Source of the DNA: Struthio camelus
Taxonomy: Eukaryota; Chordata; Aves; Struthioniformes; Struthionidae
Assembly (NCBI RefSeq): GCF_040807025.1
Contig: NC_090946.1
Span: 6,676,001-6,740,000, forward strand
Length of the DNA stretch: 64,000 bases
Direction: 5' to 3'
The position numbers were made by a program, and so were the translations under genes. The notes under the pieces were generated by a model. The model was given only the letters and a program-made list of their open reading frames with translations. It ran no database searches and was not told the origin of the DNA. Positions 36,901 through 64,000 of the stretch are shown here, piece after piece (the stretch's first letter is position 1; the number at the start of each line of letters is the position of its first letter).

Positions 36901-36904
36901 GGAG

Positions 36905-38690: not shown

Positions 38691-38941
38691 TGAGGTGAGG
38701 TGGGAAGCAGAGGAAGAGGCTGTGGCTGGGTGTGGGACGTGTTGGGCTGTAGAGCTGCATTGCCATGTTGCCTGCTGCCTGGAGAGTGGAGGTTGGCCGT
38801 GCTGATGCGAGGGCTGGGGGGCAGGGGCAGTGTGGTGCGGGGCGTGGGGGGGCTGATGGAGCCTGGTGCCAGGCGTGGGGACTGGGGAGACATGGTACGG
38901 GCTGCTGCCGGGCCTGGTGGGCTAGGGAGAAAACTCGGCCG
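38691..38941. other. G-rich transition to the satellite
   Basis: G/T-rich sequence (GGCTGGGTGTGGGACGTG, GGGGCAGGGGCAGTG) continuing the positive GC skew from CpG island 2 up to the first satellite unit. No gene seen. Confidence 0.5.
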
Positions 38942-40350
38942 GGGCTGAAACCACTCCATCAGGACTTAAACCACTCTGCCGAGCCTAAAACCACTCCGTG
39001 AGCCCGAAAACCACTCAGTCAAGCCTAAAACCACTCAGTCAAGCCTAAAACCACTGTGTCGGGACTGAAACGACTCCGTCGGGGCGAAAACCACTCGGAG
39101 ACCTAAACCACTCTGCCGAGCATGAAAAAACACTGTCAGGGCCAAAACGATTGCGCCAAGCGTAAAAAAAATCCATCAGGTGGAAAACCACTCCGTTGGG
39201 GCTGAAACCACTGTGTCAGGCGGAAAAACACTCCGTCGGGGCCAAAAACCACTGTGTCGGGGCCAAAAACCACTGCACCGAGTCTAAAAGCACTCCGTCG
39301 GGGCAGAAACCACTCCACAAAGCCTAAAGCCACTGCGACAGTTCAAAAACAACTGCGTCGGGGCAGAAACGACTCTGCCAAGCCGAAAACCACTGCGTCG
39401 GGGCTGAAACCACTCCGCCAAGCCGAAAACCACTCGGCTCACCTTAAAACCACTGCGTCGGGGCCAAAACCAGTGCATCGGCCAAAACCACTTGGCTGAC
39501 GTTAAAGCCGCTCTGCCAAGCCTAAAACCACTGCGTCGGGGCTGAAACCACTCCATCAAGCCGAAAACCACTCCGTGGTGGCTGAAACGACTCCGCCGAG
39601 CCGAAAAGCACTCTGTCGGGGCTGAAACCACTCCGCTGAGCCTAAAACCACTGCATCAGGGCTGAAACCACTCCATTAAGCCTGAAACCACTCCGTCGAG
39701 GCTGAAACCACTCCACCAGTGCTGAAACCACTCTGCCGAGCCGAAAACCACTGCGTCGGGGCTGAAACCACTCCGCCGAGCCGAAAACCACTGCGTCGGG
39801 GCTGAAACCACTCCGCCGAGCCGAAAACCACTGCGTTGGGGCGGAAACAACTGCGCCGAGTCTAAAACCACTCCGTCGGGGCGGAAACCACTGTGCCAGG
39901 ACCAAAACCACTCCGTCGGGGTGGAAATTGCTGCGTCAGGCCGAAAAGGACTCCACCAGGGCCAAAAACACTCCGCCGATATTAAAACCACTCCGCTGAG
40001 CCTAAAACCACTGCGTCGGAGCTGAAACCACTCCGCTGAGCCGAAAAGCACTGCGTCGGGGCTGAAACCACTCCGCCAGGCTGAAAACCACCCAGCTCAC
40101 CTTAAAACCACTCCGTCAAGCCTAAAACCACTCCGCCGAGCCGAAAACCACTGTGTTGGGGCTGAAATCACTCCGCCAAGCCTGAAACCACTCCTTGGGG
40201 GCCGAAAGCACTCCGCCAAGCCTGAAACCACTCCTTGGGGGCCGAAAGCACTCCTTGGGGGCCTAAACCACTCCGCCGAGCCTAAAACAACTCCGTCGGG
40301 GCCAAAACCACTGGGCGGAGCCTTAAACTACTCCATGAGGTCGAAAACCA

Positions 40351-40680
40351 CTGCGTCGGGGCTGAAACCACTGCGTCGGGGCTGAAACCACTGCGTCGGG
40401 GCTGAAACCACTGCGTCGGGGCTGAAACCACTGCGTCGGGGCTGAAACCACTGCGTCGGGGCTGAAACCACTGCGTCGGGGCTGAAACCACTGCGTCGGG
40501 GCTGAAACCACTGCGTCGGGGCTGAAACCACTGCGTCGGGGCTGAAACCACTGCGTCGGGGCTGAAACCACTCCGTCGGGGCTGAAACCACTCCGTCGGG
40601 GCTGAAACCACTCCGTCGGGGCTGAAACCACTCCGTCGGGGCTGAAACCACTCCGTCGGGGCTGAAACCACTCCGTCGGG
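40351..40680. repeat. Homogeneous 20-bp sub-array (17 units)
   Basis: Eleven copies of CTGCGTCGGGGCTGAAACCA are followed by six copies differing only by G to C at the third base (CTCCG). The copies appear perfect, in contrast with the mixed units on both sides, so this is a recent local expansion. Confidence 0.95.
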
Positions 40681-41079
40681 GCTGAAACCACTCCTCCGAC
40701 AGTAAAACCACTACATCAAGCCTAAAACCACTCCGTCGGGGCTGAAACCACTCCGCCGAGCCTAAAACCACTCTGTCGGGGCTGAAACCACTGTGCTGGG
40801 GCGGAAACTGCTCCGTCAGGCTGTAAACCACTGCGTCAGGCCGGAAAGCACTCCACCAGGGCCAAAACCTGAAAGCGTTCCACCAGGGCTAAAACCACTC
40901 CGTCGACATTAAAACCACTGCACCAAGCCTAAAAGCACTCCGCCGAGCCTGAAACCACTGTGTCAGGCCTGAAACGACTCCGCTGAGCCTGAAACCACTG
41001 CGTCAGGCCTAAAACCACTCCGCCGAGCCGAAAACAACTCCGTCGGGGCCAAAACCACTCCACCAGTGCTGAAACCGCT

Positions 41080-41760
41080 CCGTCGGGGCTGAAACCGCTC
41101 CGTGAAGCCGAAAAGCACTGTGTCGGGGCTGAAACCCCTCCGTGAAGCCGAAAAGCACTGTGTCGGGGCTGAAACCGCTCCGTGAAGCCGAAAAGCACTG
41201 TGTCGGGGCTGAAACCCCTCCGTGAAGCCGAAAAGCACTGTGTCGGGGCTGAAACCCCTCCGTGAAGCCGAAAAGCACTGTGTCGGGGCTGAAACCCCTC
41301 CGTGAAGCCGAAAAGCACTGTGTCGGGGCTGAAACCCCTCCGTGAAGCCGAAAAGCACTGTGTCGGGGCTGAAACCGCTCCGTGAAGCCGAAAAGCACTG
41401 TGTCGGGGCTGAAACCCCTCCGTGAAGCCGAAAAGCACTGTGTCGGGGCTGAAACCCCTCCGTGAAGCCGAAAAGCACTGTGTCGGGGCTGAAACCCCTC
41501 CGTGAAGCCGAAAAGCACTGTGTCGGGGCTGAAACCCCTCCGTGAAGCCGAAAAGCACTGTGTCGGGGCTGAAACCGCTCCGTGAAGCCGAAAAGCACTG
41601 TGTCGGGGCTGAAACCGCTCCGTGAAGCCGAAAAGCACTGTGTCGGGGCTGAAACCGCTCCGTGAAGCCGAAAAGCACTGTGTCGGGGCTGAAACCGCTC
41701 CGTGAAGCCGAAAAGCACTGTGTCGGGGCTGAAACCCCTCCGTGAAGCCGAAAAGCACTC
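41080..41760. repeat. 40-bp dimer sub-array, about 17 copies
   Basis: A 40-bp dimer made of GGGGCTGAAACCCCTCCGTG and AAGCCGAAAAGCACTGTGTC is tandemly repeated. The only regular variation is CCCCTC versus CCGCTC in the first half, distributed irregularly among copies. Smaller runs of the same dimer occur at 43022, 43611, 47451, 48001, 54870, 55430, 59110, 63060 and 63690. Confidence 0.93.
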
Positions 41761-42248
41761 TGTCGGGGTTGAAAGCACTCCGCCGAGGCCAAAACCACTC
41801 GTCTGACCTTAAAACCCCTCCGCCGAGCCTAAAAGCACTGCATTGGGGCTGAAACCACTGCGCCAGGGCCAAATCCACTCCGTCGGGGCTGAAACCACTC
41901 CACCGAGCCTAAAACCACTGCGTCGGGGCTGAAACCACTCCGCCAAGCCTAAAACCACTGCGTCAGGTGGAAAACCACTCCGCCGAGCCTAGAACCACTC
42001 CACTGAGCCTAAAAGCACTGCATTGGGGCTGAAACCACTCTGCCAGGGCTAAAACGACTGCGTCGGGGCTGAAACCACTCCATCAAGCCTAAAACCACTG
42101 CGTCGGGGCTGAAACTACTGCGTCAGGCCCAAAATAACTCCGTCGGGGCCAAAACCACTCCAGCAGTGCTGAAACCACTGCGCCAAGCCTGAAACCACTG
42201 CGTCGGGGCTGAAACCACTCCGCCACGGCCAAAACCACTCGGCTGACC

Positions 42249-45200
42249 TTAAAACCACTCCATCAAGCCTAAAAGCACTGCGCCGGGGCCGAAACCGCTC
42301 CGCCGGGGCCGAAACCGCTCCGCCGGGGCCGAAACCGCTCCGCCGGGGCCGGAAACCACTGCATCAGGCCGAAAACCACTCCGTCGGGGCTGAAACCATT
42401 CCGTCGGGGCCGAAACCACTGTGCCAGGGCCGAAACCACTGTGCCAGGGCCAAAACCACTCCTCCGACAGTAAAACCACTACATCAAGCCTAAAACCACA
42501 CCGCCGGGGCAGAAACCACTCCGCCGAGCCTAAAGGCAGTGCGACAGGGCTGAAACCACTCCGCCAAGCCTAAAACCACTGCGTCAGGTGGAAAACCACT
42601 CCGCCAGGGCCGAAACCCCTCCGCTGACATTAAAACCATTCCGTCAGGGCTGGAACCACTCTGCCGAGCCTAAAACCCCTCCGTCGGGGCTGAAACCACT
42701 GTGCTGGGGCGGAAACTGCTCCGTCAGGCTGTAAACCACTGCGTCAGGCCGGAAAGCACTCCAGCAGGGCCAAAACGACTGCGTCGGGGCTGAAAGCGTT
42801 CCACCAGGGCTAAAACCACTCCGTCGACATTAAAACCACTACGCCAAGCCTAAAACCACTCCGTCAGGGCTGAAACCACTCCGCCGAGCCTGAAACCACT
42901 GCATCAGGCCTGAAACCACTCCGCCGAGCCTGAAACCACTACGTCAGGCCTAAAACCACTCCGCCGAGCTGAAAACAACTCCGTCGGGGCCAAAACCACT
43001 CCACCAGTGCTGAAACCGCTCCGTCGGGGCTGAAACCGCTCCGTGAAGCCGAAAAGCACTGTGTCGGGGCTGAAACCCCTCCGTGAAGCCGAAAAGCACT
43101 GTGTCGGGGCTGAAACCGCTCCGTGAAGCCGAAAAGCACTGTGTCGGGGCTGAAACCCCTCCGTGAAGCCGAAAAGCACTCTGTCGGGGCTGAAAGCACT
43201 CCGCCGAGCCTAAAAGCACTCCGTCGGGGCTGAAACCACAGTGCCAGGGCCAAATCCACTCCGTCGGGGCTGAAACCACTCCATCAAACCTAAAACCACT
43301 GCATCAGGCCGAAAACCACTCCGTCGGGGCTGAAACCATTCCGTCGGGGCTGAAACCACTGTGCTGGGGCGGAAACTGCTCCATCAGGCTGTAAACCACT
43401 GCGTCAGGCCGGAAAGCACTCCAGCAGGGCCAAAACCTGAAAGCGTTCCACCAGGGCTAAAACCACTCCGTCGACATTAAAACCACTACGCCAAGCCTAA
43501 AAGCACTCCGCCGAGCCTGAAACCACTCCGCCAGGGCCAAAACCACTCCGCCGAGCCGAAAACAACTCCGTCGGGGCCAAAACCACTCCACCAGTGCTGA
43601 AACCGCTCCGTCAGGGCTGAAACCCCTCCGTGAAGCCGAAAAGCACTGTGTCGGGGCTGAAACCCCTCCGTGAAGCCGAAAAGCACTGTGTCGGGGCTGA
43701 AACCCCTCCGTGAAGCCGAAAAGCACTCTGTCAGGGTTGAAAGCACTCCGCCGAGGCCAAAACCACTCGTCTGACCTTAAAACCCCTCCGCCGAGCCTAA
43801 AAGCACTGCATCGGGGCTGAAACCACTGCGCCAGGGCCAAATCCACTCCGTCGGGGCTGAAACCACTCCATCAAACCTAAAACCACTGCATCAGGCCGAA
43901 AACCACTCCGTCGGGGCTGAAACCACTCCACCGAGCCTAAAAGCAGTGCGTCAGGGCTGAAACCACTCCGCCAAGCCTAAAACCACTGCGTCAGGTGGAA
44001 AACCACTCCGCCGAGCCTAGAACCACTCCACTGAGCCTAAAAGCACTGCATTGGGGCTGAAACCACTCTGCCAGGGCTAAAACGACTGCGTCGGGGCTGA
44101 AACCACTCCATCAAGCCTAAAACCACTGCGTCGGGGCTGAAACTACTGCGTCAGGCCCAAAATAACTCCGTCGGGGCCAAAACCACTCCAGCAGTGCTGA
44201 AACCACTGTGCCAAGCCTGAAACCACTGCGTCGGGGCTGAAACCACTCCACCAGGGCCAAAACCACTCAATCGGGGCTGAAAGCGTTCCACCAGGGCTAA
44301 AACCACTCCGCCGACATTAAAACCACTGCGCCAAGCGTGAAACCCCTCCGTCGGGGCTGAAACCACTCCGCCGAGCCTAAAAGCAGTGCGTCAGGGCTGA
44401 AACCACTCCGCCGAGCCTAAAAGCAGTGCGTCAGGGCTGAAACCACTCCGCCGAGCCTAAAAGCAGTGCGTCAGGGCTGAAACCACTCCGCCGAGCCTAA
44501 AAGCAGTGCGTCAGGGCTGAAACCACTCCGCCGAGCCTAAAACCACTGCATCAGGTGGAAAACCACTCCGCCAGGGCCAAAACCACACCGCTGACATTAA
44601 AACCATTCCGTCAGGGCTGGAACCACTCCGCCGAGCCTAAAACCTCTCCTTCGGGGCTGAAACCACTCCACCAAGCCTAAAATCACTCCGTCGGGGCGGA
44701 AACCACTGCGCCAGGGCCAAAACCACTGCGTCGGGGCTGAAACCACTCCACCAGGGCCAAAACCACTCAAGCGGGGCTGAAAGCGTTCCACCAGGGCTAA
44801 AACCACCCCGTCGACATTAAAACCACTACGCCAAGCCTAAAAGCACTGCGTCGGGGCTGAAACAACTCCGCCGAGCCTGAAACCACTGCATCAGGCCTGA
44901 AACCACTCCGCCGAGCCTGAAACCACTGCATCAGGCCTGAAACCACTCCGCCGAGCCTGAAACCACTGCGTCGGGGCTGAAACCACTCCGCCAAGCCGAA
45001 AACCACTGCGTCGGGGCTGACACCACTCCGCCGAGCCTAAAACCACTGCGTTGGGGCTGAAAGCACTCCACCAAGCAGAAAAGCACTCCGTTGGGGTTGA
45101 AAGCACTCCACCAAGCAGAAAAGCACTCCGGCGGGGTGGAAATTGCTCCGTCAGGCCGATGAGGACTCCACCAGGGCCAAAAACACTCTGCCGATATTAA

Positions 45201-48200
45201 AACCACTGCGCCGAGCCAAAAACGACTCCGTCTTGGCCGAAATCACTCCACTGAGCCTAAAACCACTCCGTTGGGGCTGAAACCACTCCATCAAGCCTAA
45301 AACCAGTCTGTCGGGGCTGAAACCACTCCGCCGAGCCGAAAACCACTTGGCCGACCTTAAAACCACTCATTGAAGCCTAAAACCACTCCATCAAGCCTAA
45401 AAAAACTGCGCTGGGGACGAAAGCACTCCGCCAAGCCTTAAACCACTCCTTCGGTGCCAAAACGACTCCGCAAGGCCTAAAACGACTCCGCCGAGGCTAA
45501 AACCACTGTGTTGGGGCTGAAACCACTCCGCTGAGCCGAAAACCAGTGTGTTGGGGCTGAAACCCCTCCGCCAAGCCGAAAACCACTGCGTCGGGGCTGA
45601 AACCACTCCGCCAGGCCGAAAACCACTCCGTTGGGGCTGCGACCACTCCACCAAGCCTAAAGCCACTGCGTCGGGGCCAAAACCACTCCACCAGTGCTGA
45701 AACCACTGCGTCGCGGCTGAAACCAGTCCGCCAGGGCCAAAAACACTCTGCCAACATTAAAACCACTCCGCCGAGCCTAAAACCACTGCGTCAGGGCTGA
45801 AACCACTCCACAAAGCCGAAAACCACTGCATCAGGGCTGAAACCACTCTGCCAGGGCTAAAACCACTCGGCTGACCTTAAAACCACTCCGCTGAGCCTAA
45901 AACCACTGTGTCGGGGCTGAAACCGCTCCATCAAGCCGAAAAGTACTCCGTCGGGGCTGAAACCGCTCCATCAAGCCGAAAACCACTGCGTTGGGGCGGA
46001 AACCACTCCACCGAGCCTAAATCCACTGCGTCGGGGCGGAAACCACTGTGCCAGGACCAAAACCACTCTGTCGGGGTGGAAATTGCTGCGTCAGGCCGGA
46101 AAGGACTCCACCAGGGCCAAAAACACTCCGCCGATATTAAAACCACTGCGCCGAGCCGAAAACCACTCCGTCGGGGCCGAAATCACTCCACTGAGCCTAA
46201 AACCACTCCGTTGGGGCCGAAATCACTCCACTGAGCCTAAAACCACTGTGTTGGGGCTGAAACCACTCCGCCAAGACGAAAACCAGTCCGTCGGGGCTGA
46301 AACCACTCCGCTGAGCCGAAAACCACTCCGTCGGGGCTGAAACCACTCCGCCGAGCCTGAAACCACTCCGTCGGGGCTGAAACCACTCCGCCGAGCCTGA
46401 AACCACTCCGTCGGGGCTGAAACCACTCTGCCAAGCCTAAAACCACTCCATGGTGTCGAAAAGCACTCCGTCGGGGCTGAAACCACTCCATCAAGCCTAA
46501 AACCACTGCGTCGGGGCTGAAACTACTGCGTCAGGCCCAAAATAACTCCGTCGGGGCCAAAACCACTCCAGCAGTGCTGAAACCACTGCGCCAAGCCTGA
46601 AACCACTGCGTCGGGGCTGAAACCACTCCGCCACGGCCAAAACCACTCGGCTGACCTTAAAACCACTCCATCAAGCCTAAAAGCACTGCGTCGGGGCTGA
46701 AACCGCTCCGCCGGGGCCGAAACCGCTCCGCCGGGGCCGAAACCGCTCCGCCGGGGCCGAAACCGCTCCGCCGGGGCCGGAAACCACTGCATCAGGCCGA
46801 AAACCACTCCGTCGGGGCTGAAACCATTCCGTCGGGGCCGAAACCACTGTGCCAGGGCCGAAACCACTGTGCCAGGGCCAAAACCACTCCTCCGACAGTA
46901 AAACCACTACATCAAGCCTAAAACCACACCGCCGGGGCAGAAACCACTCCGCCGAGCCTAAAGGCAGTGCGACAGGGCTGAAACCACTCCGCCAAGCCTA
47001 AAACCACTGCGTCAGGTGGAAAACCACTCCGCCAGGGCCGAAACCCCTCCGCTGACATTAAAACCATTCCGTCAGGGCTGGAACCACTCTGCCGAGCCTA
47101 AAACCCCTCCGTCGGGGCTGAAACCACTGTGCTGGGGCGGAAACTGCTCCGTCAGGCTGTAAACCACTGCGTCAGGCCGGAAAGCACTCCAGCAGGGCCA
47201 AAACGACTGCGTCGGGGCTGAAAGCGTTCCACCAGGGCTAAAACCACTCCGTCGACATTAAAACCACTACGCCAAGCCTAAAACCACTCCGTCAGGGCTG
47301 AAACCACTCCGCCGAGCCTGAAACCACTGCATCAGGCCTGAAACCACTCCGCCGAGCCTGAAACCACTGCGTCAGGCCTAAAACCACTCCGCCGAGCCGA
47401 AAACAACTCCGTCGGGGCCAAAACCACTCCACCAGTGCTGAAACCGCTCCGTCGGGGCTGAAACCCCTCCGTGAAGCCGAAAAGCACTGTGTCGGGGCTG
47501 AAACCCCTCCGTGAAGCCGAAAAGCACTGTGTCGGGGCTGAAACCCCTCCGTGAAGCCGAAAAGCACTCTGTCGGGGCTGAAAGCACTCCGCCGAGCCTA
47601 AAAGCACTCCGTCGGGGCTGAAACCACAGTGCCAGGGCCAAATCCACTCCGTCGGGGCTGAAACCACTCCATCAAACCTAAAACCACTGCATCAGGCCGA
47701 AAACCACTCCGTCGGGGCTGAAACCATTCCGTCGGGGCTGAAACCACTGTGCTGGGGCGGAAACTGCTCCGTCAGGCTGTAAACCACTGCGTCAGGCCGG
47801 AAAGCACTCCACCAGGGCCAAAACCTGAAAGCGTTCCACCAGGGCTAAAACCACTCCGTCGACATTAAAACCACTACGCCAAGCCTAAAAGCACTCCGCC
47901 GAGCCTGAAACCACTCCGCCAGGGCCAAAACCACTCCGCCGAGCCGAAAACAACTCCGTCGGGGCCAAAACCACTCCACCAGTGCTGAAACCGCTCCGTC
48001 AGGGCTGAAACCCCTCCGTGAAGCCGAAAAGCACTGTGTCGGGGCTGAAACCCCTCCGTGAAGCCGAAAAGCACTGTGTCGGGGCTGAAACCCCTCCGTG
48101 AAGCCGAAAAGCACTCTGTCAGGGTTGAAAGCACTCCGCCGAGGCCAAAACCACTCGTCTGACCTTAAAACCCCTCCGCCGAGCCTAAAAGCACTGCATC

Positions 48201-50890
48201 GGGGCTGAAACCACTGCGCCAGGGCCAAATCCACTCCGTCGGGGCTGAAACCACTCCATCAAACCTAAAACCACTGCATCAGGCCGAAAACCACTCCGTC
48301 GGGGCTGAAACCACTCCACCGAGCCTTAAAGCAGTGCGTCAGGGCTGAAACCACTCCGCCAAGCCTAAAACCACTGCGTCAGGTGGAAAACCACTCCGCC
48401 GAGCCTAGAACCACTCCACTGAGCCTAAAAGCACTGCATTGGGGCTGAAACCACTCTGCCAGGGCTAAAACGACTGCGTCGGGGCTGAAACCACTCCATC
48501 AAGCCTAAAACCACTGCGTCGGGGCTGAAACTACTGCGTCAGGCCCAAAATAACTCCGTCGGGGCCAAAACCACTCCAGTAGTGCTGAAACCACTGTGCC
48601 AAGCCTGAAACCACTGCGTCGGGGCTGAAACCACTCCACCAGGGCCAAAACCACTCAATCGGGGCTGAAAGCGTTCCACCAGGGCTAAAACCACTCCGCC
48701 GACATTAAAACCACTGCGCCAAGCGTGAAACCCCTCCGTCGGGGCTGAAACCACTCCGCCGAGCCTAAAAGCAGTGCGTCAGGGCTGAAACCACTCCGCC
48801 GAGCCTAAAAGCAGTGCGTCAGGGCTGAAACCACTCCGCCGAGCCTAAAAGCAGTGCGTCAGGGCTGAAACCACTCCGCCGAGCCTAAAACCACTGCATC
48901 AGGTGGAAAACCACTCCGCCAGGGCCAAAACCACACCGCTGACATTAAAACCATTCCGTCAGGGCTGGAACCACTCCGCCGAGCCTAAAACCTCTCCTTC
49001 GGGGCTGAAACCACTCCACCAAGCCTAAAATCACTCCGTCGGGGCGGAAACCACTGCGCCAGGGCCAAAACCACTGCGTCGGGGCTGAAACCACTCCACC
49101 AGGGCCAAAACCACTCAAGCGGGGCTGAAAGCGTTCCACCAGGGCTAAAACCACCCCGTCGACATTAAAACCACTACGCCAAGCCTAAAAGCACTGCGTC
49201 GGGGCTGAAACAACTCCGCCGAGCCTGAAACCACTGCATCAGGCCTGAAACCACTCCGCCGAGCCTGAAACCACTGCATCAGGCCTGAAACCACTCCGCC
49301 GAGCCTGAAACCACTGCGTCGGGGCTGAAACCACTCCGCCTAGCCGAAAACCACTGCATCGGGGCTGAAACCACTCCGCCAAGCCGAAAACCACTGCGTC
49401 GGGGCTGACACCACTCCGCCGAGCCTAAAACCACTGCGTTGGGGCTGAAAGCACTCCACCAAGCAGAAAAGCACTCCGTTGGGGTTGAAAGCACTCCACC
49501 AAGCAGAAAAGCACTCCGGCGGGGTGGAAATTGCTCCGTCAGGCCGATGAGGACTCCACCAGGGCCAAAAACACTCTGCCGATATTAAAACCACTGCGCC
49601 GAGCCAAAAACGACTCCGTCTTGGCCGAAATCACTCCACTGAGCCTAAAACCACTCCGTTGGGGCTGAAACCACTCCATCAAGCCTAAAACCAGTCTGTC
49701 GGGGCTGAAACCACTCCGCCGAGCCGAAAACCACTTGGCCGACCTTAAAACCACTCATTGAAGCCTAAAACCACTCCATCAAGCCTAAAAAAACTGCGCT
49801 GGGGACGAAAGCACTCCGCCAAGCCTTAAACCACTCCTTCGGTGCCAAAACGACTCCGCAAGGCCTAAAACGACTCCGCCGAGGCTAAAACCACTGTGTT
49901 GGGGCTGAAACCACTCCGCTGAGCCGAAAACCAGTGTGTTGGGGCTGAAACCCCTCCGCCAAGCCGAAAACCACTGCGTCGGGGCTGAAACCACTCCGCC
50001 AGGCCGAAAACCACTCCGTTGGGGCTGCGACCACTCCACCAAGCCTAAAGCCACTGCGTCGGGGCCAAAACCACTCCACCAGTGCTGAAACCACTGCGTC
50101 GCGGCTGAAACCAGTCCGCCAGGGCCAAAAACACTCTGCCAACATTAAAACCACTCCGCCGAGCCTAAAACCACTGCGTCAGGGCTGAAACCACTCCACA
50201 AAGCCGAAAACCACTGCATCAGGGCTGAAACCACTCTGCCAGGGCTAAAACCACTCGGCTGACCTTAAAACCACTCCGCTGAGCCTAAAACCACTGCGTC
50301 GGGGCTGAAACCGCTCCATCAAGCCGAAAAGTACTCCGTCGGGGCTGAAACCGCTCCATCAAGCCGAAAACCACTGCGTTGGGGCGGAAACCACTCCACC
50401 GAGCCTAAATCCACTGCGTCGGGGCGGAAACCACTGTGCCAGGACCAAAACCACTCTGTCGGGGTGGAAATTGCTGCGTCAGGCCGGAAAGGACTCCACC
50501 AGGGCCAAAAACACTCCGCCGATATTAAAACCACTGTGCCGAGCCGAAAACCACTCCGTCGGGGCCGAAATCACTCCACTGAGCCTAAAACCACTCCGTT
50601 GGGGCCGAAATCACTCCACTGAGCCTAAAACCACTGTGTTGGGGCTGAAACCACTCCGCCAAGACGAAAACCAGTCCGTCGGGGCTGAAACCACTCCGCT
50701 GAGCCGAAAACCACTCCGTCGGGGCTGAAACCACTCCGCCGAGCCTGAAACCACTCCGTCGGGGCTGAAACCACTCCGCCGAGCCTGAAACCACTCCGTC
50801 GGGGCTGAAACCACTCTGCCAAGCCTAAAACCACTCCATGGTGTCGAAAAGCACTCCGTCGGGGCTGAAAACACTCCACCAAGCCGAAAA
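42249..50890. repeat. Higher-order repeat, two copies about 4.4 kb apart
   Basis: The segment about 42249-46490 recurs at about 46677-50880. The offset is 4428 bp at the left and 4388 bp from about 42904 on. The 40-bp change is one dimer fewer in the run at 47451 than at 43022. Odd units such as AAAACCTGAAAGCG (43432 and 47820) mark matching positions. Confidence 0.92.
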
Positions 50891-53029
50891 GCACTGCGTC
50901 AGGGCTGGAAGCACTCTGTCGGGGCTGACACCACTCCGCCGAGCCGAAAACCACTGCGTCGGGGCTGAAACCACTCTGCCAGGCCAAAAACCACTGCGTC
51001 GGGGCTGAAACCACTCTGCGAAGCCGAAAACCACTCCGTCGGGGCTGAAACCACTGCGTTAGGCCAAAAACCACTGGGTTGGGGCTGAAACCACTCCGCC
51101 AGGCCGAAAACCACCCAGCTCACCTTAAAACCACTCCGTCAAGCCTAAAACCACTCCATCAAGCCGAAAACCACTGTGTTGGACCTGAAATCACTCCGCC
51201 AAGCCTGAAACCACTCCGTCGGGGCGGAAACCACTCCTTGGGGGCCTAAACCACTCCGCCGAGCCGAAAACCACTCCATCAAGCCGAAAACCACTGCGTT
51301 GGGGCTGAAACCGCTCCATCAAGCCTAAAACCACTCCGTCGGGGCTGAAACCGCTCCATCAAGCCTAAAACCACTCCGTCGGGGCTGAAACCACTCCACC
51401 AGTGCTGAAACCACTGCGTCAGACCTGAAACCACTCCACCAAGCCGAAAAGCACTCCGCCAAGCCTGAAACGACTCCGCCGAGCCTAAAACAACTCCGTC
51501 GGGGCTGAAACCACTCCACCAGTGCTGAAACCGCTCCGTCGGGGCTGAAACCCCTCTGTGAAGCCGAAAAGCACTCTGTCGGGGCTGAAACCACTCCGCT
51601 GAGCCAAAAACCACTGCGTCGGGGCTGAAACCACTCTGCCAGGGCCAAAACGACTCGTCTGACCTTAAAACCAGTCCGCCGAGCCTAAAAGCACTGTGTC
51701 GGGGCTGAAACCACTCCGCCAGGGCCTAAAACCATTCCGTCGGGGCTGTAACCACTGTGCCAGGACCAAATCCACTCCGTCGGGGCTGAAACCACTCCAC
51801 CAAGCCTAAAACCACTGCATCAGGCCGAAAACCACTCCGTCAGGGCTGAAACCACTGTGCCAGGGCCAAAACCACTCCGCTGACATTAAAACCACTCCAT
51901 CAAGCCTAAAACCATTCTGTCAGGGCTGGAACCACTCCGCCGAGCCTAAAACCCCTCCGTCGGGGCTGAAACCACTGTGCTGGGGCGGAAACTGCTCCGT
52001 CAGGCTGTAAACCACTGCGTCAGGCCGGAAAGCACTCCAGCAGGGCCAAAACGACTGCGTCGGGGCTGAAAGCGTTCCACCAGGGCTAAAACCACTCCGT
52101 CGACATTAAAACCACTACGCCAAGCCTAAAACCACTCCGTCAGGGCTGAAACCACTCCGCCGAGCCTGAAACCACTGCATCAGGCCTGAAACCACTCCGC
52201 CAGGGCCAAAACCACTGCGTCAGGCCTAAAACCACTCCACCGAGCCTAAAACAACTCCGTCGGGGCCAAAACCACTCCACCAGTGCTGAAACCGCTCCGT
52301 CGGGGCTGAAACCCCTCCGTGAAGCCGAAAAGCACTGTGTCGGGGCTGAAACCATTCCGCGAAGCTGAAAAGTACTCTGTCGGGGCTGAAACCCCTCCGT
52401 GAAGCCGAAAAGCACTCTGTCGGGGCTGAAAGCACTCCGCCGAGCCTAAAAGCACTGCATCGGGGCTGAAACCACTGCGCCAGGGCCAAATCCACTCCGT
52501 CAGGGCTGAAACCATTCCATCAAACCTAAAACCACTGCATCAGGCCGAAAACCACTCCGTCGGGGCTGAAACCACTCCGTCGGGGCTGAAACCACTGTGC
52601 CAGGGCCGAAACCACTGTGCCAGGGCCAAAACCACTCCTCCGACAGTAAAACCACTACATCAAGCCTAAAACCACTCCGTCGGGGCTGAAACCACTCCGC
52701 CGAGCCTAAAACCACTCTGTCGGGGCTGAAACCACTGTGCTGGGGCGGAAACTGCTCCGTCAGGCTGTAAACCACTGCGTCAGGCCGGAAAGCACTCCAC
52801 CAGGGCCAAAACCTGAAAGCGTTCCACCAGGGCTAAAACCACTCCGTCGACATTAAAACCACTGCACCAAGCCTAAAAGCACTCCGCCGAGCCTGAAACC
52901 ACTGTGTCAGGCCTGAAACGACTCCGCCGAGCCTGAAACCACTGCGTCAGGCCTAAAACCACTCCGCCGAGCCGAAAACAACTCCGTCGGGGCCAAAACC
53001 ACTCCACCAGTGCTGAAACCGCTCCGTCG

Positions 53030-53590
53030 GGGCTGAAACCGCTCCGTGAAGCCGAAAAGCACTGTGTCGGGGCTGAAACCGCTCCGTGAAGCCGAAAAGC
53101 ACTGTGTCGGGGCTGAAACCCCTCCGTGAAGCCGAAAAGCACTGTGTCGGGGCTGAAACCCCTCCGTGAAGCCGAAAAGCACTGTGTCGGGGCTGAAACC
53201 GCTCCGTGAAGCCGAAAAGCACTGTGTCGGGGCTGAAACCCCTCCGTGAAGCCGAAAAGCACTGTGTCGGGGCTGAAACCCCTCCGTGAAGCCGAAAAGC
53301 ACTGTGTCGGGGCTGAAACCCCTCCGTGAAGCCGAAAAGCACTGTGTCGGGGCTGAAACCGCTCCGTGAAGCCGAAAAGCACTGTGTCGGGGCTGAAACC
53401 GCTCCGTGAAGCCGAAAAGCACTGTGTCGGGGCTGAAACCGCTCCGTGAAGCCGAAAAGCACTGTGTCGGGGCTGAAACCCCTCCGTGAAGCCGAAAAGC
53501 ACTGTGTCGGGGCTGAAACCGCTCCGTGAAGCCGAAAAGCACTGTGTCGGGGCTGAAACCCCTCCGTGAAGCCGAAAAGCACTCTGTCAG
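53030..53590. repeat. 40-bp dimer sub-array, about 14 copies
   Basis: The counterpart of the dimer run at 41080-41760, in a paralogous block about 11.9 kb away and shorter by three dimers. It has the same irregular CCCCTC/CCGCTC variation but in a different order, so copies have been shuffled or converted since the blocks duplicated. Confidence 0.92.
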
Positions 53591-54092
53591 GGTTGAAAGC
53601 ACTCCGCCGAGGCCAAAACCACTCGTCTGACCTTAAAACCCCTCCGCCGAGCCTAAAAGCACTGCATTGGGGCTGAAACCACTGCGCCAGGGCCAAATCC
53701 ACTCCGTCGGGGCTGAAACCACTCCACCGAGCCTAAAACCACTGCGTCGGGGCTGAAACCACTCCGCCAAGCCTAAAACCACTGCGTCAGGTGGAAAACC
53801 ACTCCGCCGAGCCTAGAACCACTCCACTGAGCCTAAAAGCACTGCATTGGGGCTGAAACCACTCTGCCAGGGCTAAAACGACTGCGTCGGGGCTGAAACC
53901 ACTCCATCAAGCCTAAAACCACTGCGTCGGGGCTGAAACTACTGCGTCAGGCCCAAAATAACTCCGTCGGGGCCAAAACCACTCCAGCAGTGCTGAAACC
54001 ACTGCGCCAAGCCTGAAACCACTGCGTCGGGGCTGAAACCACTCCGCCACGGCCAAAACCACTCGGCTGACCTTAAAACCACTCCATCAAGC

Positions 54093-57000
54093 CTAAAAGC
54101 ACTGCGCCGGGGCCGAAACCGCTCCGCCGGGGCCGAAACCGCTCCGCCGGGGCCGAAACCGCTCCGCCGGGGCCGAAACCGCTCCGCCGGGGCCGGAAAC
54201 CACTGCATCAGGCCGAAAACCACTCCGTCGGGGCTGAAACCATTCCGTCGGGGCCGAAACCACTGTGCCAGGGCCGAAACCACTGTGCCAGGGCCAAAAC
54301 CACTCCTCCGACAGTAAAACCACTACATCAAGCCTAAAACCACACCACCGGGGCAGAAACCACTCCGCCGAGCCTAAAGGCAGTGCGACAGGGCTGAAAC
54401 CACTCCGCCAAGCCTAAAACCACTGCGTCAGGTGGAAAACCACTCCGCCAGGGCCGAAACCCCTCCGCTGACATTAAAACCATTCCGTCAGGGCTGGAAC
54501 CACTCTGCCGAGCCTAAAACCCCTCCGTCGGGGCTGAAACCACTGTGCTGGGGCGGAAACTGCTCCGTCAGGCTGTAAACCACTGCGTCAGGCCGGAAAG
54601 CACTCCAGCAGGGCCAAAACGACTGCGTCGGGGCTGAAAGCGTTCCACCAGGGCTAAAACCACTCCGTCGACATTAAAACCACTACGCCAAGCCTAAAAC
54701 CACTCCGTCAGGGCTGAAACCACTCCGCCGAGCCTGAAACCACTGCATCAGGCCTGAAACCACTCCGCCGAGCCTGAAACCACTACGTCAGGCCTAAAAC
54801 CACTCCGCTGAGCTGAAAACAACTCCGTCGGGGCCAAAACCACTCCACCAGTGCTGAAACCGCTCCGTCGGGGCTGAAACCCCTCCGTGAAGCCGAAAAG
54901 CACTGTGTCGGGGCTGAAACCGCTCCGTGAAGCCGAAAAGCACTGTGTCGGGGCTGAAACCCCTCCGTGAAGCCGAAAAGCACTCTGTCGGGGCTGAAAG
55001 CACTCCGCCGAGCCTAAAAGCACTCCGTCGGGGCTGAAACCACAGTGCCAGGGCCAAATCCACTCCGTCGGGGCTGAAACCACTCCATCAAACCTAAAAC
55101 CACTGCATCAGGCCGAAAACCACTCCGTCGGGGCTGAAACCATTCCGTCGGGGCTGAAACCACTGTGCTGGGGCGGAAACTGCTCCGTCAGGCTGTAAAC
55201 CACTGCGTCAGGCCGGAAAGCACTCCAGCAGGGCCAAAACCTGAAAGCGTTCCACCAGGGCTAAAACCACTCCGTCGACATTAAAACCACTACGCCAAGC
55301 CTAAAAGCACTCCGCCGAGCCTGAAACCACTCCGCCAGGGCCAAAACCACTCCGCCGAGCCGAAAACAACTCCGTCGGGGCCAAAACCACTCCACCAGTG
55401 CTGAAACCGCTCCGTCAGGGCTGAAACCCCTCCGTGAAGCCGAAAAGCACTGTGTCGGGGCTGAAACCCCTCCGTGAAGCCGAAAAGCACTGTGTCGGGG
55501 CTGAAACCCCTCCGTGAAGCCGAAAAGCACTCTGTCAGGGTTGAAAGCACTCCGCCGAGGCCAAAACCACTCGTCTGACCTTAAAACCCCTCCGCCGAGC
55601 CTAAAAGCACTGCATCGGGGCTGAAACCACTGCGCCAGGGCCAAATCCACTCCGTCGGGGCTGAAACCACTCCATCAAACCTAAAACCACTGCATCAGGC
55701 CGAAAACCACTCCGTCGGGGCTGAAACCACTCCACCGAGCCTAAAAGCAGTGCGTCAGGGCTGAAACCACTCCGCCAAGCCTAAAACCACTGCGTCAGGT
55801 GGAAAACCACTCCGCCGAGCCTAGAACCACTCCACTGAGCCTAAAAGCACTGCATTGGGGCTGAAACCACTCTGCCAGGGCTAAAACGACTGCGTCGGGG
55901 CTGAAACCACTCCATCAAGCCTAAAACCACTGCGTCGGGGCTGAAACTACTGCGTCAGGCCCAAAATAACTCCGTTGGGGCCAAAACCACTCCAGCAGTG
56001 CTGAAACCACTGTGCCAAGCCTGAAACCACTGCGTCGGGGCTGAAACCACTCCACCAGGGCCAAAACCACTCAATCGGGGCTGAAAGCGTTCCACCAGGG
56101 CTAAAACCACTCCGCCGACATTAAAACCACTGCGCCAAGCGTGAAACCCCTCCGTCGGGGCTGAAACCACTCCGCCGAGCCTAAAAGCAGTGCGTCAGGG
56201 CTGAAACCACTCCGCCGAGCCTAAAAGCAGTGCGTCAGGGCTGAAACCACTCCGCCGAGCCTAAAAGCAGTGCGTCAGGGCTGAAACCACTCCGCCGAGC
56301 CTAAAACCACTGCATCAGGTGGAAAACCACTCCGCCAGGGCCAAAACCACACCGCTGACATTAAAACCATTCCGTCAGGGCTGGAACCACTCCGCCGAGC
56401 CTAAAACCTCTCCTTCGGGGCTGAAACCACTCCACCAAGCCTAAAATCACTCCGTCGGGGCGGAAACCACTGCGCCAGGGCCAAAACCACTGCGTCGGGG
56501 CTGAAACCACTCCACCAGGGCCAAAACCACTCAAGCGGGGCTGAAAGCGTTCCACCAGGGCTAAAACCACCCCGTCGACATTAAAACCACTACGCCAAGC
56601 CTAAAAGCACTGCGTCGGGGCTGAAACAACTCCGCCGAGCCTGAAACCACTGCATCAGGCCTGAAACCACTCCGCCGAGCCTGAAACCACTGCATCAGGC
56701 CTGAAACCACTCCGCCGAGCCTGAAACCACTGCGTCGGGGCTGAAACCACTCCGCCTAGCCGAAAACCACTGCATCGGGGCTGAAACCACTCCGCCAAGC
56801 CGAAAACCACTGCGTCGGGGCTGACACCACTCCGCCGAGCCTAAAACCACTGCGTTGGGGCTGAAAGCACTCCACCAAGCAGAAAAGCACTCCGTTGGGG
56901 TTGAAAGCACTCCACCAAGCAGAAAAGCACTCCGGCGGGGTGGAAATTGCTCCGTCAGGCCGATGAGGACTCCACCAGGGCCAAAAACACTCTGCCGATA

Positions 57001-60000
57001 TTAAAACCACTGCGCCGAGCCAAAAACGACTCCGTCTTGGCCGAAATCACTCCACTGAGCCTAAAACCACTCCGTTGGGGCTGAAACCACTCCATCAAGC
57101 CTAAAACCAGTCTGTCGGGGCTGAAACCACTCCGCCGAGCCGAAAACCACTTGGCCGACCTTAAAACCACTCATTGAAGCCTAAAACCACTCCATCAAGC
57201 CTAAAAAAACTGCGCTGGGGACGAAAGCACTCCGCCAAGCCTTAAACCACTCCTTCGGTGCCAAAACGACTCCGCAAGGCCTAAAACGACTCCGCCGAGG
57301 CTAAAACCACTGTGTTGGGGCTGAAACCACTCCGCTGAGCCGAAAACCAGTGTGTTGGGGCTGAAACCCCTCCGCCAAGCCGAAAACCACTGCGTCGGGG
57401 CTGAAACCACTCCGCCAGGCCGAAAACCACTCCGTTGGGGCTGCGACCACTCCACCAAGCCTAAAGCCACTGCGTCGGGGCCAAAACCACTCCACCAGTG
57501 CTGAAACCACTGCGTCGCGGCTGAAACCAGTCCGCCAGGGCCAAAAACACTCTGCCAACATTAAAACCACTCCGCCGAGCCTAAAACCACTGCGTCAGGG
57601 CTGAAACCACTCCACAAAGCCGAAAACCACTGCATCAGGGCTGAAACCACTCTGCCAGGGCTAAAACCACTCGGCTGACCTTAAAACCACTCCGCCAAGC
57701 CTAAAACCACTGCGTCGGGGCTGAAACCGCTCCATCAAGCCGAAAAGTACTCCGTCGGGGCTGAAACCGCTCCATCAAGCCGAAAACCACTGCGTTGGGG
57801 CGGAAACCACTCCACCGAGCCTAAATCCACTGCGTCGGGGCGGAAACCACTGTGCCAGGACCAAAACCACTCTGTCGGGGTGGAAATTGCTGCGTCAGGC
57901 CGGAAAGGACTCCACCAGGGCCAAAAACACTCCGCCGATATTAAAACCACTGCGCCGAGCCGAAAACCACTCCGTCGGGGCCGAAATCACTCCACTGAGC
58001 CTAAAACCACTCCGTTGGGGCCGAAATCACTCCACTGAGCCTAAAACCACTGTGTTGGGGCTGAAACCACTCCGCCAAGACGAAAACCAGTCCGTCGGGG
58101 CTGAAACCACTCCGCTGAGCCGAAAACCACTCCGTCGGGGCTGAAACCACTCTGCCGAGCCTGAAACCACTCCGTCGGGGCTGAAACCACTCTGCCGAGC
58201 CTGAAACCACTCCGTCGGGGCTGAAACCACTCTGCCAAGCCTAAAACCACTCCATGGTGTCGAAAAGCACTCCGTCGGGGCTGAAAACACTCCACCAAGC
58301 CGAAAAGCACTGCGTCAGGGCTGGAAGCACTCTGTCGGGGCTGACACCACTCCGCCGAGCCGAAAACCACTGCGTCGGGGCTGAAACCACTCTGCCAGGC
58401 CAAAAACCACTGCGTCGGGGCTGAAACCACTCTGCGAAGCCGAAAACCACTCCGTCGGGGCTGAAACCACTGCGTTAGGCCAAAAACCACTGCGTTGGGG
58501 CTGAAACCACTCCTCCAGGCCGAAAACCACCCAGCTCACCTTAAAACCACTCCGTCAAGCCTAAAACCACTCCATCAAGCCGAAAACCACTGTGTTGGAC
58601 CTGAAATCACTCCGCCAAGCCTGAAACCACTCCGTCGGGGCGGAAACCACTCCGTCGGGGCCTAAACCACTCCGCCGAGCCGAAAACCACTCCATGGGGT
58701 CGAAAACCACTCCGTCGGGCCTGAAACCACTCTGCGAAGCCGAAAACCACTCCGTCGGGGCTGAAACCACTGCGTTAGGCCAAAAACCACTGGGTTGGGG
58801 CTGAAACCACTCCGCCAGGCCAAAAACCACCCAGCTCACCTTAAAACCACTCCGTCAAGCCTAAAACCACTCCGTCAAGCCTAAAACCACTCCATCAAGC
58901 CGAAAACCACTCCGTCGGGCCTGAAACCGCTCCATCAAGCCTAAAACCACTCCGTCGGGGCTGAAACCACTCCACCAGTGCTGAAACCACTGCGTCAGAC
59001 CTGAAACCACTCCACCAAGCCGAAAAGCACTCCGCCAAGCCTGAAACCACTCCGCCGAGCCTAAAACAACTCCGTCGGGGCTGAAACCACTCCACCAGTG
59101 CTGAAACCGCTCCGTCGGGGCTGAAACCCCTCCGTGAAGCCGAAAAGCACTGTGTCGGGGCTTAAACCCCTCCGTGAAGCCGAAAAGCACTGTGTCGGGG
59201 CTTAAACCCCTCCGTGAAGCCGAAAAGCACTGTGTCGGGGCTGAAACCCCTCCGTGAAGCCGAAAAGCACTGTGTCGGGGCTGAAACCCCTCCGTGAAGC
59301 CGAAAAGCACTGTGTCGGGGCTGAAACCCCTCCGTGAAGCCGAAAAGCACTCTGTCGGGGTTGAAAGCACTCCGCCGAGGCCAAAACCACTCGTCTGACC
59401 TTAAAACCCCTCCGCCGAGCCTAAAAGCACTGCATCGGGGCTGAAACCACTGCGCCAGGGCCAAATCCACTCCGTCAGGGCTGAAACCACTCCATCAAAC
59501 CTAAAACCACTGCATCAGGCCGAAAACCACTCCGTCGGGGCTGAAACCACTCCACCGAGCCTAAAAGCAGTGCGTCAGGGCTGAAACCACTCCGCCAAGC
59601 CTAAAACCACTGCGTCAGGTGGAAAACCACTCCGCCGAGCCTAGAACCACTCCACTGAGCCTAAAAGCACTGCATTGGGGCTGAAACCACTCTGCCAGGG
59701 CTAAAACGACTGCGTCGGGGCTGAAACCACTCCATCAAGCCTAAAACCACTGCGTCGGGGCTGAAACTACTGCGTCAGGCCCAAAATAACTCCGTCGGGG
59801 CCAAAACCACTCCAGCAGTGCTGAAACCACTGTGCCAAGCCTGAAACCACTGCGTCGGGGCTGAAACCACTCCGCCACGGCCAAAACCACTCAATCGGGG
59901 CTGAAAGCGTTCCACCAGGGCTAAAACCACTGCGCCAAGCGTGAAACCCCTCCGTCGGGGCTGAAACCACTCCGCCGAGCCTAAAAGCAGTGCGTCAGGG

Positions 60001-63000
60001 CTGAAACCACTCCGCCGAGCCTAAAAGCAGTGCGTCAGGGCTGAAACCACTCCGCCGAGCCTAAAAGCAGTGCGTCAGGGCTGAAACCACTCCGCCGAGC
60101 CTAAAACCACTGCATCAGGTGGAAAACCACTCCGCCAGGGCCAAAACCACACCGCTGACATTAAAACCATTCCGTCAGGGCTGGAACCACTCCGCCGAGC
60201 CTAAAACCTCTCCTTCGGGGCTGAAACCACTCCACCAAGCCTAAAATCACTCCGTCGGGGCGGAAACCACTGCGCCAGGGCCAAAACCACTGCGTCGGGG
60301 CTGAAACCACTCCACCAGGGCCAAAACCACTCAAGCGGGGCTGAAAGCGTTCCACCAGGGCTAAAACCACCCCGTCGACATTAAAACCACTACGCCAAGC
60401 CTAAAAGCACTGCGTCGGGGCTGAAACAACTCCGCCGAGCCTGAAACCACTGCATCAGGCCTGAAACCACTCCGCCGAGCCTGAAACCACTGCATCAGGC
60501 CTGAAACCACTCCGCCGAGCCTGAAACCACTGCGTCGGGGCTGAAACCACTCCGCCAAGCCGAAAACCACTGCGTCGGGGCTGACACCACTCCGCCGAGC
60601 CTAAAACCACTGCGTTGGGGCTGAAAGCACTCCACCAAGCAGAAAAGCACTCCGTTGGGGTTGAAAGCACTCCACCAAGCAGAAAAGCACTCCGGCGGGG
60701 TGGAAATTGCTCCGTCAGGCCGATGAGGACTCCACCAGGGCCAAAAACACTCTGCCGATATTAAAACCACTGCGCCGAGCCAAAAACGACTCCGTCTTGG
60801 CCGAAATCACTCCACTGAGCCTAAAACCACTCCGTTGGGGCTGAAACCACTCCATCAAGCCTAAAACCAGTCTGTCGGGGCTGAAACCACTCCGCCGAGC
60901 CGAAAACCACTTGGCCGACCTTAAAACCACTCATTGAAGCCTAAAACCACTCCATCAAGCCTAAAAAAACTGCGCTGGGGACGAAAGCACTCCGCCAAGC
61001 CTTAAACCACTCCTTCGGTGCCAAAACGACTCCGCAAGGCCTAAAACGACTCCGCCGAGGCTAAAACCACTGTGTTGGGGCTGAAACCACTCCGCTGAGC
61101 CGAAAACCAGTGTGTTGGGGCTGAAACCCCTCCGCCAAGCCGAAAACCACTGCGTCGGGGCTGAAACCACTCCGCCAGGCCGAAAACCACTCCGTTGGGG
61201 CTGCGACCACTCCACCAAGCCTAAAGCCACTGCGTCGGGGCCAAAACCACTCCACCAGTGCTGAAACCACTGCGTCGCGGCTGAAACCAGTCCGCCAGGG
61301 CCAAAAACACTCTGCCAACATTAAAACCACTCCGCCGAGCCTAAAACCACTGCGTCAGGGCTGAAACCACTCCACAAAGCCGAAAACCACTGCATCAGGG
61401 CTGAAACCACTCTGCCAGGGCTAAAACCACTCGGCTGACCTTAAAACCACTCCGCTGAGCCTAAAACCACTGCGTCGGGGCTGAAACCGCTCCATCAAGC
61501 CGAAAAGTACTCCGTCGGGGCTGAAACCGCTCCATCAAGCCGAAAACCACTGCGTTGGGGCGGAAACCACTCCACCGAGCCTAAATCCACTGCGTCGGGG
61601 CGGAAACCACTGTGCCAGGACCAAAACCACTCTGTCGGGGTGGAAATTGCTGCGTCAGGCCGGAAAGGACTCCACCAGGGCCAAAAACACTCCGCCGATA
61701 TTAAAACCACTGCGCCGAGCCGAAAACCACTCCGTCGGGGCCGAAATCACTCCACTGAGCCTAAAACCACTCCGTTGGGGCCGAAATCACTCCACTGAGC
61801 CTAAAACCACTGTGTTGGGGCTGAAACCACTCCGCCAAGACGAAAACCAGTCCGTCGGGGCTGAAACCACTCCGCTGAGCCGAAAACCACTCCGTCAGGG
61901 CTGAAACCACTCCGCCGAGCCTGAAACCACTCCGTCGGGGCTGAAACCACTCCGCCGAGCCTGAAACCACTCCGTCGGGGCTGAAACCACTCCGCCGAGC
62001 CTGAAACCACTCCGTCGGGGCTGAAACCACTCTGCCAAGCCTAAAACCACTCCATGGTGTCGAAAAGCACTCCGTCGGGGCTGAAACCACTCCATCAAGC
62101 CTAAAACCACTGCGTCGGGGCTGAAACTACTGCGTCAGGCCCAAAATAACTCCGTCGGGGCCAAAACCACTCCAGCAGTGCTGAAACCACTGCGCCAAGC
62201 CTGAAACCACTGCGTCGGGGCTGAAACCACTCCGCCAGGGCCAAAACCACTCGTCTGACCTTAAAACCACTCCATCAAGCCTAAAAGCACTGCGTCGGGG
62301 CCGAAACCGCTCCGCCGGGGCCGAAACCGCTCCGCCGGGGCCGAAACCGCTCCGCCGGGGCCGAAACCGCTCCGCCGGGGCCGGAAACCACTGCATCAGG
62401 CCGAAAACCACTCCGTCGGGGCTGAAACCATTCCGTCGGGGCCGAAACCACTGTGCCAGGGCCGAAACCACTGTGCCAGGGCCAAAACCACTCCTCCGAC
62501 AGTAAAACCACTACATCAAGCCTAAAACCACACCGCCGGGGCAGAAACCACTCCGCCGAGCCTAAAGGCAGTGCGACAGGGCTGAAACCACTCCGCCAAG
62601 CCTAAAACCACTGCGTCAGGTGGAAAACCACTCCGCCAGGGCCGAAACCCCTCCGCTGACATTAAAACCATTCCGTCAGGGCTGGAACCACTCTGCCGAG
62701 CCTAAAACCCCTCCGTCGGGGCTGAAACCACTGTGCTGGGGCGGAAACTGCTCCGTCAGGCTGTAAACCACTGCGTCAGGCCGGAAAGCACTCCAGCAGG
62801 GCCAAAACGACTGCGTCGGGGCTGAAAGCGTTCCACCAGGGCTAAAACCACTCCGTCGACATTAAAACCACTACGCCAAGCCTAAAACCACTCCGTCAGG
62901 GCTGAAACCACTCCGCCGAGCCTGAAACCACTGCATCAGGCCTGAAACCACTCCGCCGAGCCTGAAACCACTGCGTCAGGCCTAAAACCACTCCGCCGAG

Positions 63001-64000
63001 CCGAAAACAACTCCGTCGGGGCCAAAACCACTCCACCAGTGCTGAAACCGCTCCGTCGGGGCTGAAACCCCTCCGTGAAGCCGAAAAGCACTGTGTCGGG
63101 GCTGAAACCCCTCCGTGAAGCCGAAAAGCACTGTGTCGGGGCTGAAACCCCTCCGTGAAGCCGAAAAGCACTGTGTCGGGGCTGAAACCGCTCCGTGAAG
63201 CCGAAAAGCACTGTGTCGGGGCTGAAACCCCTCCGTGAAGCCGAAAAGCACTGTGTCGGGGCTGAAAGCACTCCGCCGAGCCTAAAAGCACTCCGTCGGG
63301 GCTGAAACCACAGTGCCAGGGCCAAATCCACTCCGTCGGGGCTGAAACCACTCCATCAAACCTAAAACCACTGCATCAGGCCGAAAACCACTCCGTCGGG
63401 GCTGAAACCATTCCGTCGGGGCTGAAACCACTGTGCTGGGGCGGAAACTGCTCCGTCAGGCTGTAAACCACTGCATCAGGCCGGAAAGCACTCCACCAGG
63501 GCCAAAACCTGAAAGCGTTCCACCAGGGCTAAAACCACTCCGTCGACATTAAAACCACTACGCCAAGCCTAAAAGCACTCCGCCGAGCCTGAAACCACTC
63601 CGCCAGGGCCAAAACCACTCCGCCGAGCCGAAAACAACTCCGTCGGGGCCAAAACCACTCCACCAGTGCTGAAACCGCTCCGTCAGGGCTGAAACCCCTC
63701 CGTGAAGCCGAAAAGCACTGTGTCGGGGCTGAAACCCCTCCGTGAAGCCGAAAAGCACTGTGTCGGGGCTGAAACCCCTCCGTGAAGCCGAAAAGCACTC
63801 TGTCAGGGTTGAAAGCACTCCGCCGAGGCCAAAACCACTCGTCTGACCTTAAAACCCCTCCGCCGAGCCTAAAAGCACTGCATCGGGGCTGAAACCACTG
63901 CGCCAGGGCCAAATCCACTCCGTCGGGGCTGAAACCACTCCATCAAACCTAAAACCACTGCATCAGGCCGAAAACCACTCCGTCGGGGCTGAAACCACTC
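54093..64000. repeat. Further higher-order copies (offsets 7416, 3760 and 8268 bp)
   Basis: 46677-51123 recurs at 54093-58539 with a constant 7416-bp offset. 57201-58210 recurs at about 60961-62000 (3760 bp). The block marked by AAAACCTGAAAGCG at 55236 recurs at 63504 (8268 bp) and runs off the window. Copies are nearly identical over kilobases. Confidence 0.92.

Follow-up and report, generated by a model that had tools for sequence, protein, structure and literature searches.

The window analysed here comprises 64,000 nucleotides of the forward strand of Struthio camelus contig NC_090946.1 (positions 6,676,001 to 6,740,000; assembly GCF_040807025.1). It holds a gene part and, from 38941 on the plus strand, an array of a 20-bp satellite unit that runs off the window end; Tandem Repeats Finder reports the array at 38948–64000 with period 20 and 1250 copies. 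An earlier note on this DNA had placed the array start at 40700, while the actual start is at ~38941. The array is a satellite higher-order repeat: unit variants recur in block order, the identity of block copies (99.3–99.8%) is far above the similarity of monomers, and length variants are made of whole monomers. Length changes between copies are concentrated in a few short sub-arrays.

A wraparound parse divides the array into 1250 whole units and one cut base. There are 248 kinds of whole unit (249 including the cut base), 1235 units are exactly 20 bp long, and the consensus is CCGTCGGGGCTGAAACCACT. Next-but-one units are more alike (~74.5%) than adjacent ones (~64%), which makes a 40-bp dimer the working period. 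The marker unit GTGCTGGGGCGGAAACTGCT occurs twice in each of blocks A, B, C and E (Table 1) at a spacing of 620–700 bp. The array is thus organized in nested tiers: the 20-bp unit, the alternating 40-bp dimer, a module of ~0.6 kb (two in each of A, B, C and E), a block of ~4.4 kb and the larger arrangement p1-A-B-t1 / p2-C-t2 / D-E. The edge of the array (38941–39952) is degenerate, with 32 of its first 50 whole units occurring nowhere else in the array. The interior, in contrast, is largely homogeneous; once-only units number 0–7 of 50 in all but one of the 24 other segments scored, the exception being the segment at 50976 with 16 of 50. A 27-bp unit, a rare departure from the 20-bp register, is present in six copies, at 40853, 43421, 47809, 52797, 55225 and 63493 (in p1, A, B, p2, C and E, respectively).

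Self-alignment reveals three complete copies of the ~4.4 kb block (A, B and C), two partial copies (D and E) and repeated flanks.

Table 1. Coordinates of blocks, flanks and sub-arrays of the satellite array within the window
Feature	Coordinates	Strand	Remarks
Homogeneous run, 17 single units (GCGTCGG.. then CCGTCGG..)	40353..40692	+	p1/p2 unit-level alignment begins just after
p1, flank before block A, copied as p2	40693..42079	+	self-alignment
Hot dimer sub-array 1, CCGTGAAGCCGAAAAGCACT / GTGTCGGGGCTGAAACC(C/G)CT, 16.5 dimers	41100..41759	+	
Block A, 4408 bp	42080..46487	+	
GC-rich unit run in A, 4 units	42280..42360	+	5 in B, C and E with the variant first unit included
Dimer sub-array 2 in A, 3.5 dimers	43041..43180	+	
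CAGT dimer sub-array in A, 4 dimers	44368..44527	+	
Block B, 4388 bp, tandem to A	46488..50875	+	tail to ~51279 common to B and C
Two-unit insertion in B (also in C)	49336..49375	+	A and D without it
t1, spacer between tail of B and p2	51280..52636	+	
p2, copy of p1	52637..53903	+	13.5 dimers at 53044-53583
Block C, 4388 bp	53904..58291	+	tail to ~58695
t2, 200-bp copy of t1 51356-51555	58932..59131	+	1 mismatch; leads into dimer junction
5.5 dimers, left boundary of D	59132..59351	+	t1-like before, A-like after
Block D, partial, A-like from third dimer sub-array onward	59352..62091	+	from 59132 with boundary dimers
Block E, partial, B-like	62092..64000	+	cut by window end

Offsets between exact 20- and 60-mers peak at 7416, 4388, 11804, 15564, 11176 and 3760, with further prominent values at 4428, 11824, 11844, 11944 and 8268. 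The offsets reported in the earlier note (4388, 7416, 3760, 8268 and about 11.9 kb) are all present in this spectrum; blocks A–E and their flanks account for every one of them, which bears out the description of the array as a mosaic of multi-kilobase blocks with length differences in whole units. Families at 15.56–15.68 kb, 11.2 kb and 20.03–20.07 kb come in addition. The listed diagonals of at least 300 bp are 96.5–100% identical, and exact sharing extends over as many as 84 consecutive units, to be compared with maxima of 4, 6 and 21 in shuffles of units, pairs and ten-unit groups, respectively (200 shuffles each). Pairwise differences among blocks A–E range from 0.22% (A–D, 6/2720) to 0.71% (D–E, with only 2/280 bp compared); B and C differ by 0.38% (18/4728) and show no length difference across 4811 bp, tail included. 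Base-level alignment gives 10 substitutions for A–B, 10 for A–C and 16 for B–C (12, 10 and 18 at the unit level). The flanks p1 and p2 have one mismatch in 400 bp and one in 540 bp beside the dimer sub-array; over the whole 1587-bp stretch they differ by five substitutions and one 120-bp gap.

In four base-level MAFFT alignments (A/B/C, A–D, B–E and p1–p2), every gap run is 20, 40, 80 or 120 bp long, one 40-bp gap of the A–D pair lying where the comparison reaches its D/E end. Two differences make up the step from 11944 to 11844 in the way the earlier note had proposed: three dimers are lost in sub-array 1 between p1 and p2 (16.5 versus 13.5, −120 bp), and one GC-rich unit is gained (four in A versus five in B, in C at 54104 and in E; +20 bp from A to C). 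The proposed series of 11944, 11844 and 11804 is real, although it skips the intermediate offset of 11824. Dimer sub-array 2, with 3.5 copies in A, 2.5 in B and in C and 4.5 in E, supplies the single dimer that had been suggested for the steps from 11844 to 11804 and from 4428 to 4388. At 44368 the offset falls to 4348 or 11764, A having one CAGT dimer more (4.0 copies, versus 3.0 in B, C and D), and the two-unit difference at 49336 brings it back to 4388 or 11804; one unit of this insertion is of a type seen only there and at 56752. Dimer 6 has 3.5 copies in D (61892–62031) and 2.5 in A, B and C, and the unit equivalent to 44308 is missing in D.

Five of these seven length-variable sites lie in sub-arrays that are repetitive even in the shorter copy, and runs of this kind take up 18.9% of unit boundaries (p=0.0036); the 5.5-dimer run at the boundary of D is not one of the seven. 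We adopted this stricter count because the B/C pair at 49336 resembles a sub-array only through its own insertion. Looser counts of 7/8, 8/9 and 6/7 (p down to 1e-5), as well as 6/8 (p=0.0009, with dimer sub-array 2 counted twice), were dropped. The longer runs (dimer sub-arrays 1 and 2 and the CAGT dimer) vary more; among short runs of 2–2.5 copies, dimer 4 and dimer 5 are constant in 4/4 copies each, as is dimer 3 (2.5 copies) in A, B, C and E.

Base substitutions are scattered; 26 of the 236 unit columns vary, four of them not being polarisable. CpG transitions account for 11 of the 20 polarised single changes (one recoded), with CpG bases making up 13.6% of the sequence (p=1.5e-5). The observed/expected CpG ratio (o/e) is 0.83 in the array, 0.42 over 2.7–24 kb and 0.26 over 24–36 kb. 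These values are consistent with CpGs that would be methylated and decaying in the germ line, with turnover of the array keeping them numerous. Ten of 24 polarised unit changes produce a unit present elsewhere in the array. Among units with two changes the fraction is 3/4, the pattern expected of conversion, and some units do look converted. A first templating test (12/26, p=3e-8) was replaced, as its alignment was wrong at the GC-rich run and its null was without sequence context; of 37 variable sites it had excluded in advance six that lie after the block end, beyond B 51200, and five others had not been polarised.

In the 5′ part of the block, A and C share one state and B and E another at 46691, 47369, 47398 and 47812 (the state at 46691 being scored after the alignment of the GC-rich run was corrected), with six differences for A–B and four for A–C in ~1.46 kb each and seven for B–C in 1.56 kb. 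In the 3′ part, B and C have the two-unit insertion at 49336 in common. The context of block C is mixed as well: upstream it has the p flank, as A does, and downstream the tail, as B does. The simplest reading, for which the evidence is weak to moderate, is that C may be the A-front, B-back product of an unequal exchange in a p-A-B-t ancestor. The difference counts back this reading only partly, since those of the 3′ part do not group B with C; and in the copy numbers of the GC-rich run and of dimer sub-array 2, C resembles B and not A. The D–E junction repeats the A–B junction at an offset of ~15.6 kb, and both lie near homogeneous runs, not in them. Block D starts inside a dimer run: 5.5 dimers are followed by A-like sequence, the first unit of which is otherwise seen only in p1; this start and that of the p1/p2 alignment, right after the 17-unit run, are the sole hints that homogeneous runs serve as joining points.

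Upstream of the array, two plus-strand stop-free stretches (16855–17004 and 18468–18641) match HEAT_Maestro above the Pfam cut-off, which suggests a maestro heat-like repeat gene. Pfam was run on 20 of the 123 listed stop-to-stop open reading frames of the gene part; in addition to the two HEAT_Maestro matches, one gave a sub-threshold zf-UDP match and 17 gave nothing. No paper combining maestro heat-like repeat, bird and copy number was found in the open-access literature. A CpG-island-like segment at 36.5–38.9 kb (74% GC, CpG o/e 0.75) ends ~40 bp before the array and looks like a gene promoter; should a plus-strand gene begin at 36500–38900, its first intron could contain the array, but the window shows no exon further downstream. 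The same 20-bp family, in the same orientation, is also present at 1–228; among the 10 in-frame units scanned there, with the unit at 102 and a misframed eleventh row left out, seven have an exact counterpart in the main array and three are one base off, so that the gene part is flanked by two stretches of one family. Other tandem repeats in the gene part are a GC-rich 31-bp minisatellite (324–2694, also called at periods 62, 93, 124 and 186) and a ~90-bp repeat (13072–13785; six copies, with a further call at period 261) that leads into a GGAGGA run. Taken together, the GC content of ~63% over 2.7–24 kb, the 31-bp and 20-bp arrays, the HEAT_Maestro matches and the CpG-rich segment look like a bird dot-type microchromosome, on which the array probably sits.

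Further searches gave no hits: Rfam had no matches in the 64-kb window at the gathering threshold, viral contigs had none to a 29-base satellite pattern, and six 12–14 letter pieces of the 20-bp unit were found nowhere in print in the open-access literature, a scope outside which most subscription papers fall. Stop-free stretches of at least 60 codons overlapping 39000–64000 number 153. In the dimer-rich region 40929–41908 all three minus-strand frames are open (281–299 codons); the triple open frames probably come from a stop-free repeat and not from a gene.

Very probably, the array grew by block copying in register, followed by whole-unit gain and loss at homogeneous sub-arrays, with occasional conversion and CpG-rich point mutation. 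Multi-kilobase blocks would multiply in the 20-bp register, through either unequal exchange or segmental tandem duplication; whole dimers or units would then be gained or lost in short homogeneous sub-arrays, by slippage or unequal exchange; conversion would occasionally overwrite single units; and point mutations, mostly CpG decay, would accumulate. The tiers, the identities and the whole-unit steps with their concentration are observed directly, whereas the mechanism of exchange, conversion, the timing and the placement on a dot-type microchromosome are what we infer. The earlier note had likewise argued for block duplication followed by slippage or unequal exchange at hot sub-arrays; the steps in multiples of 20 bp and the five of seven sites agree with this, though slippage and unequal exchange are indistinguishable from one assembly.

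Several observations weigh against this reading. Two of the seven length sites (49336 and 44308) are outside sub-arrays, and dimer 6, a run of 2.5 copies, nonetheless varies in D. The earlier note had expected differences to be concentrated rather than scattered; apart from these two sites this is true of lengths, but not of substitutions. Templating of single-base changes is weak: 7/20 match an existing unit, whereas a context-matched null predicts 3.57 (P=0.042), and a hot dimer run contains two of the seven matches; the fraction for double-change units is a figure for which no null was computed. Relationships among A, B and C conflict along the block, and in the 3′ part (~2 kb; two differences for A–B, five for A–C and five for B–C) B and C do not group. 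All comparisons, furthermore, come from one assembly. The growth history that the earlier note called readable is so only in part, given the conflict among A, B and C, some converted-looking units and one block boundary inside a 40-bp sub-array.

An unlikely alternative is that the blocks are an assembly artefact, produced by placing the two haplotypes of a single shorter array, or wrongly joined reads, one after the other. Heterozygosity is of the same order as the block divergence of 0.22–0.71%, and near-identical repeats are difficult to assemble. False duplication is, moreover, a known assembly fault (PMC9516828). Yet a single stretch contains one segment in four copies (A, B, C and D) and another also in four (A, B, C and E), more than two alleles can explain; the junctions have differing contexts (A–B, p2–C and dimer–D), and the copies carry private substitutions.

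We give an equally small chance to the possibility that sub-arrays vary through single-strand folding, by hairpin-driven slippage, and not through local identity. The GC-rich run is indeed among the most stable of 401 unit pairs (percentile 0.017 for the top strand and 0.002 for the bottom strand). However, over both strands the percentile ranks are 24th–67th for the most variable dimer in its two forms and 26th–56th for the CAGT dimer and dimer 6, and copy number in the run tracks variability better; hairpin energy was rejected as the cause of variation except for the GC-rich run. That the array is a functional centromeric or pericentromeric satellite whose blocks spread by centromere-type amplification is very improbable: chicken CNM repeats do make higher-order repeats at centromeres (PMC9974502), but the start of this array adjoins the CpG-island-like segment and its consensus is without the T-run of the CNM family.

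Returning to block copying followed by unit-by-unit change, we tentatively propose a further role for the 40-bp dimer sub-arrays, though we think it rather doubtful. They might do double duty, as sites of copy-number change and as exchange or joining sites of multi-kilobase blocks, so that a few homogeneous runs would steer the growth of the whole array beside a putative gene promoter.

Three known systems invite comparison. The galliform CNM family consists of microchromosome repeats with a 41-bp unit in chicken (PMC6435179, PMC9974502), in which A3-5 and T3-5 reiterations are 6–7 bp apart (PMC6435179). The ostrich array is similar in its short unit, its occurrence in a bird, its higher-order repeats and its length of roughly 40 bp at the dimer level. 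Unlike CNM, it carries a single A-tract in each 20 bp of consensus, lacks a T3-5 run and has a unit of 20/40 bp rather than 41 bp; we do not assign it to this family. For alpha satellite higher-order repeats, unequal crossing over, saltatory amplification and conversion are named as causes (PMC11062924). Both systems have tandem units in a repeated block of high identity, and orangutan arrays are a mosaic of expansions (PMC11062924). The alpha satellite unit is ~171 bp (PMC11062924), whereas the array here has a 20-bp unit and is gene-proximal and without a centromere link, and only three complete and two partial block copies are in view.

Dot chromosomes of chicken are GC-rich with abundant satellite (PMC9974502), and their introns show an instability of repeat length termed 'sequence stuttering', with intergenic sequence said to vary too (PMC12954441). 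Stuttering and the array have in common a GC-rich, gene-dense region and repeats, tens to hundreds of bp long, that have expanded locally; stuttering yields length alleles by expansion and reduction of individual repeats (PMC12954441), while the array is known here from one assembly. The stuttering clusters described are mainly intronic, imperfect and of local exon/intron origin (PMC12954441); the array, which could itself be intronic, is one 20-bp family that extends over 25 kb or more, nearly perfect in unit length and organized in multi-kilobase blocks.

We regard the array as a product of ordinary higher-order-repeat evolution, closest to the published repeat instability of dot chromosomes and unusual mainly in its legibility. 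Uniformity or length puts many satellites beyond unit-by-unit reading. Here 248 kinds of unit in a near-strict 20-bp register make block copying, unit gain and loss, conversion and CpG decay separately scorable within 25 kb, and, if read data agree, the locus would offer a compact test site for the growth of gene-adjacent tandem arrays on bird microchromosomes.

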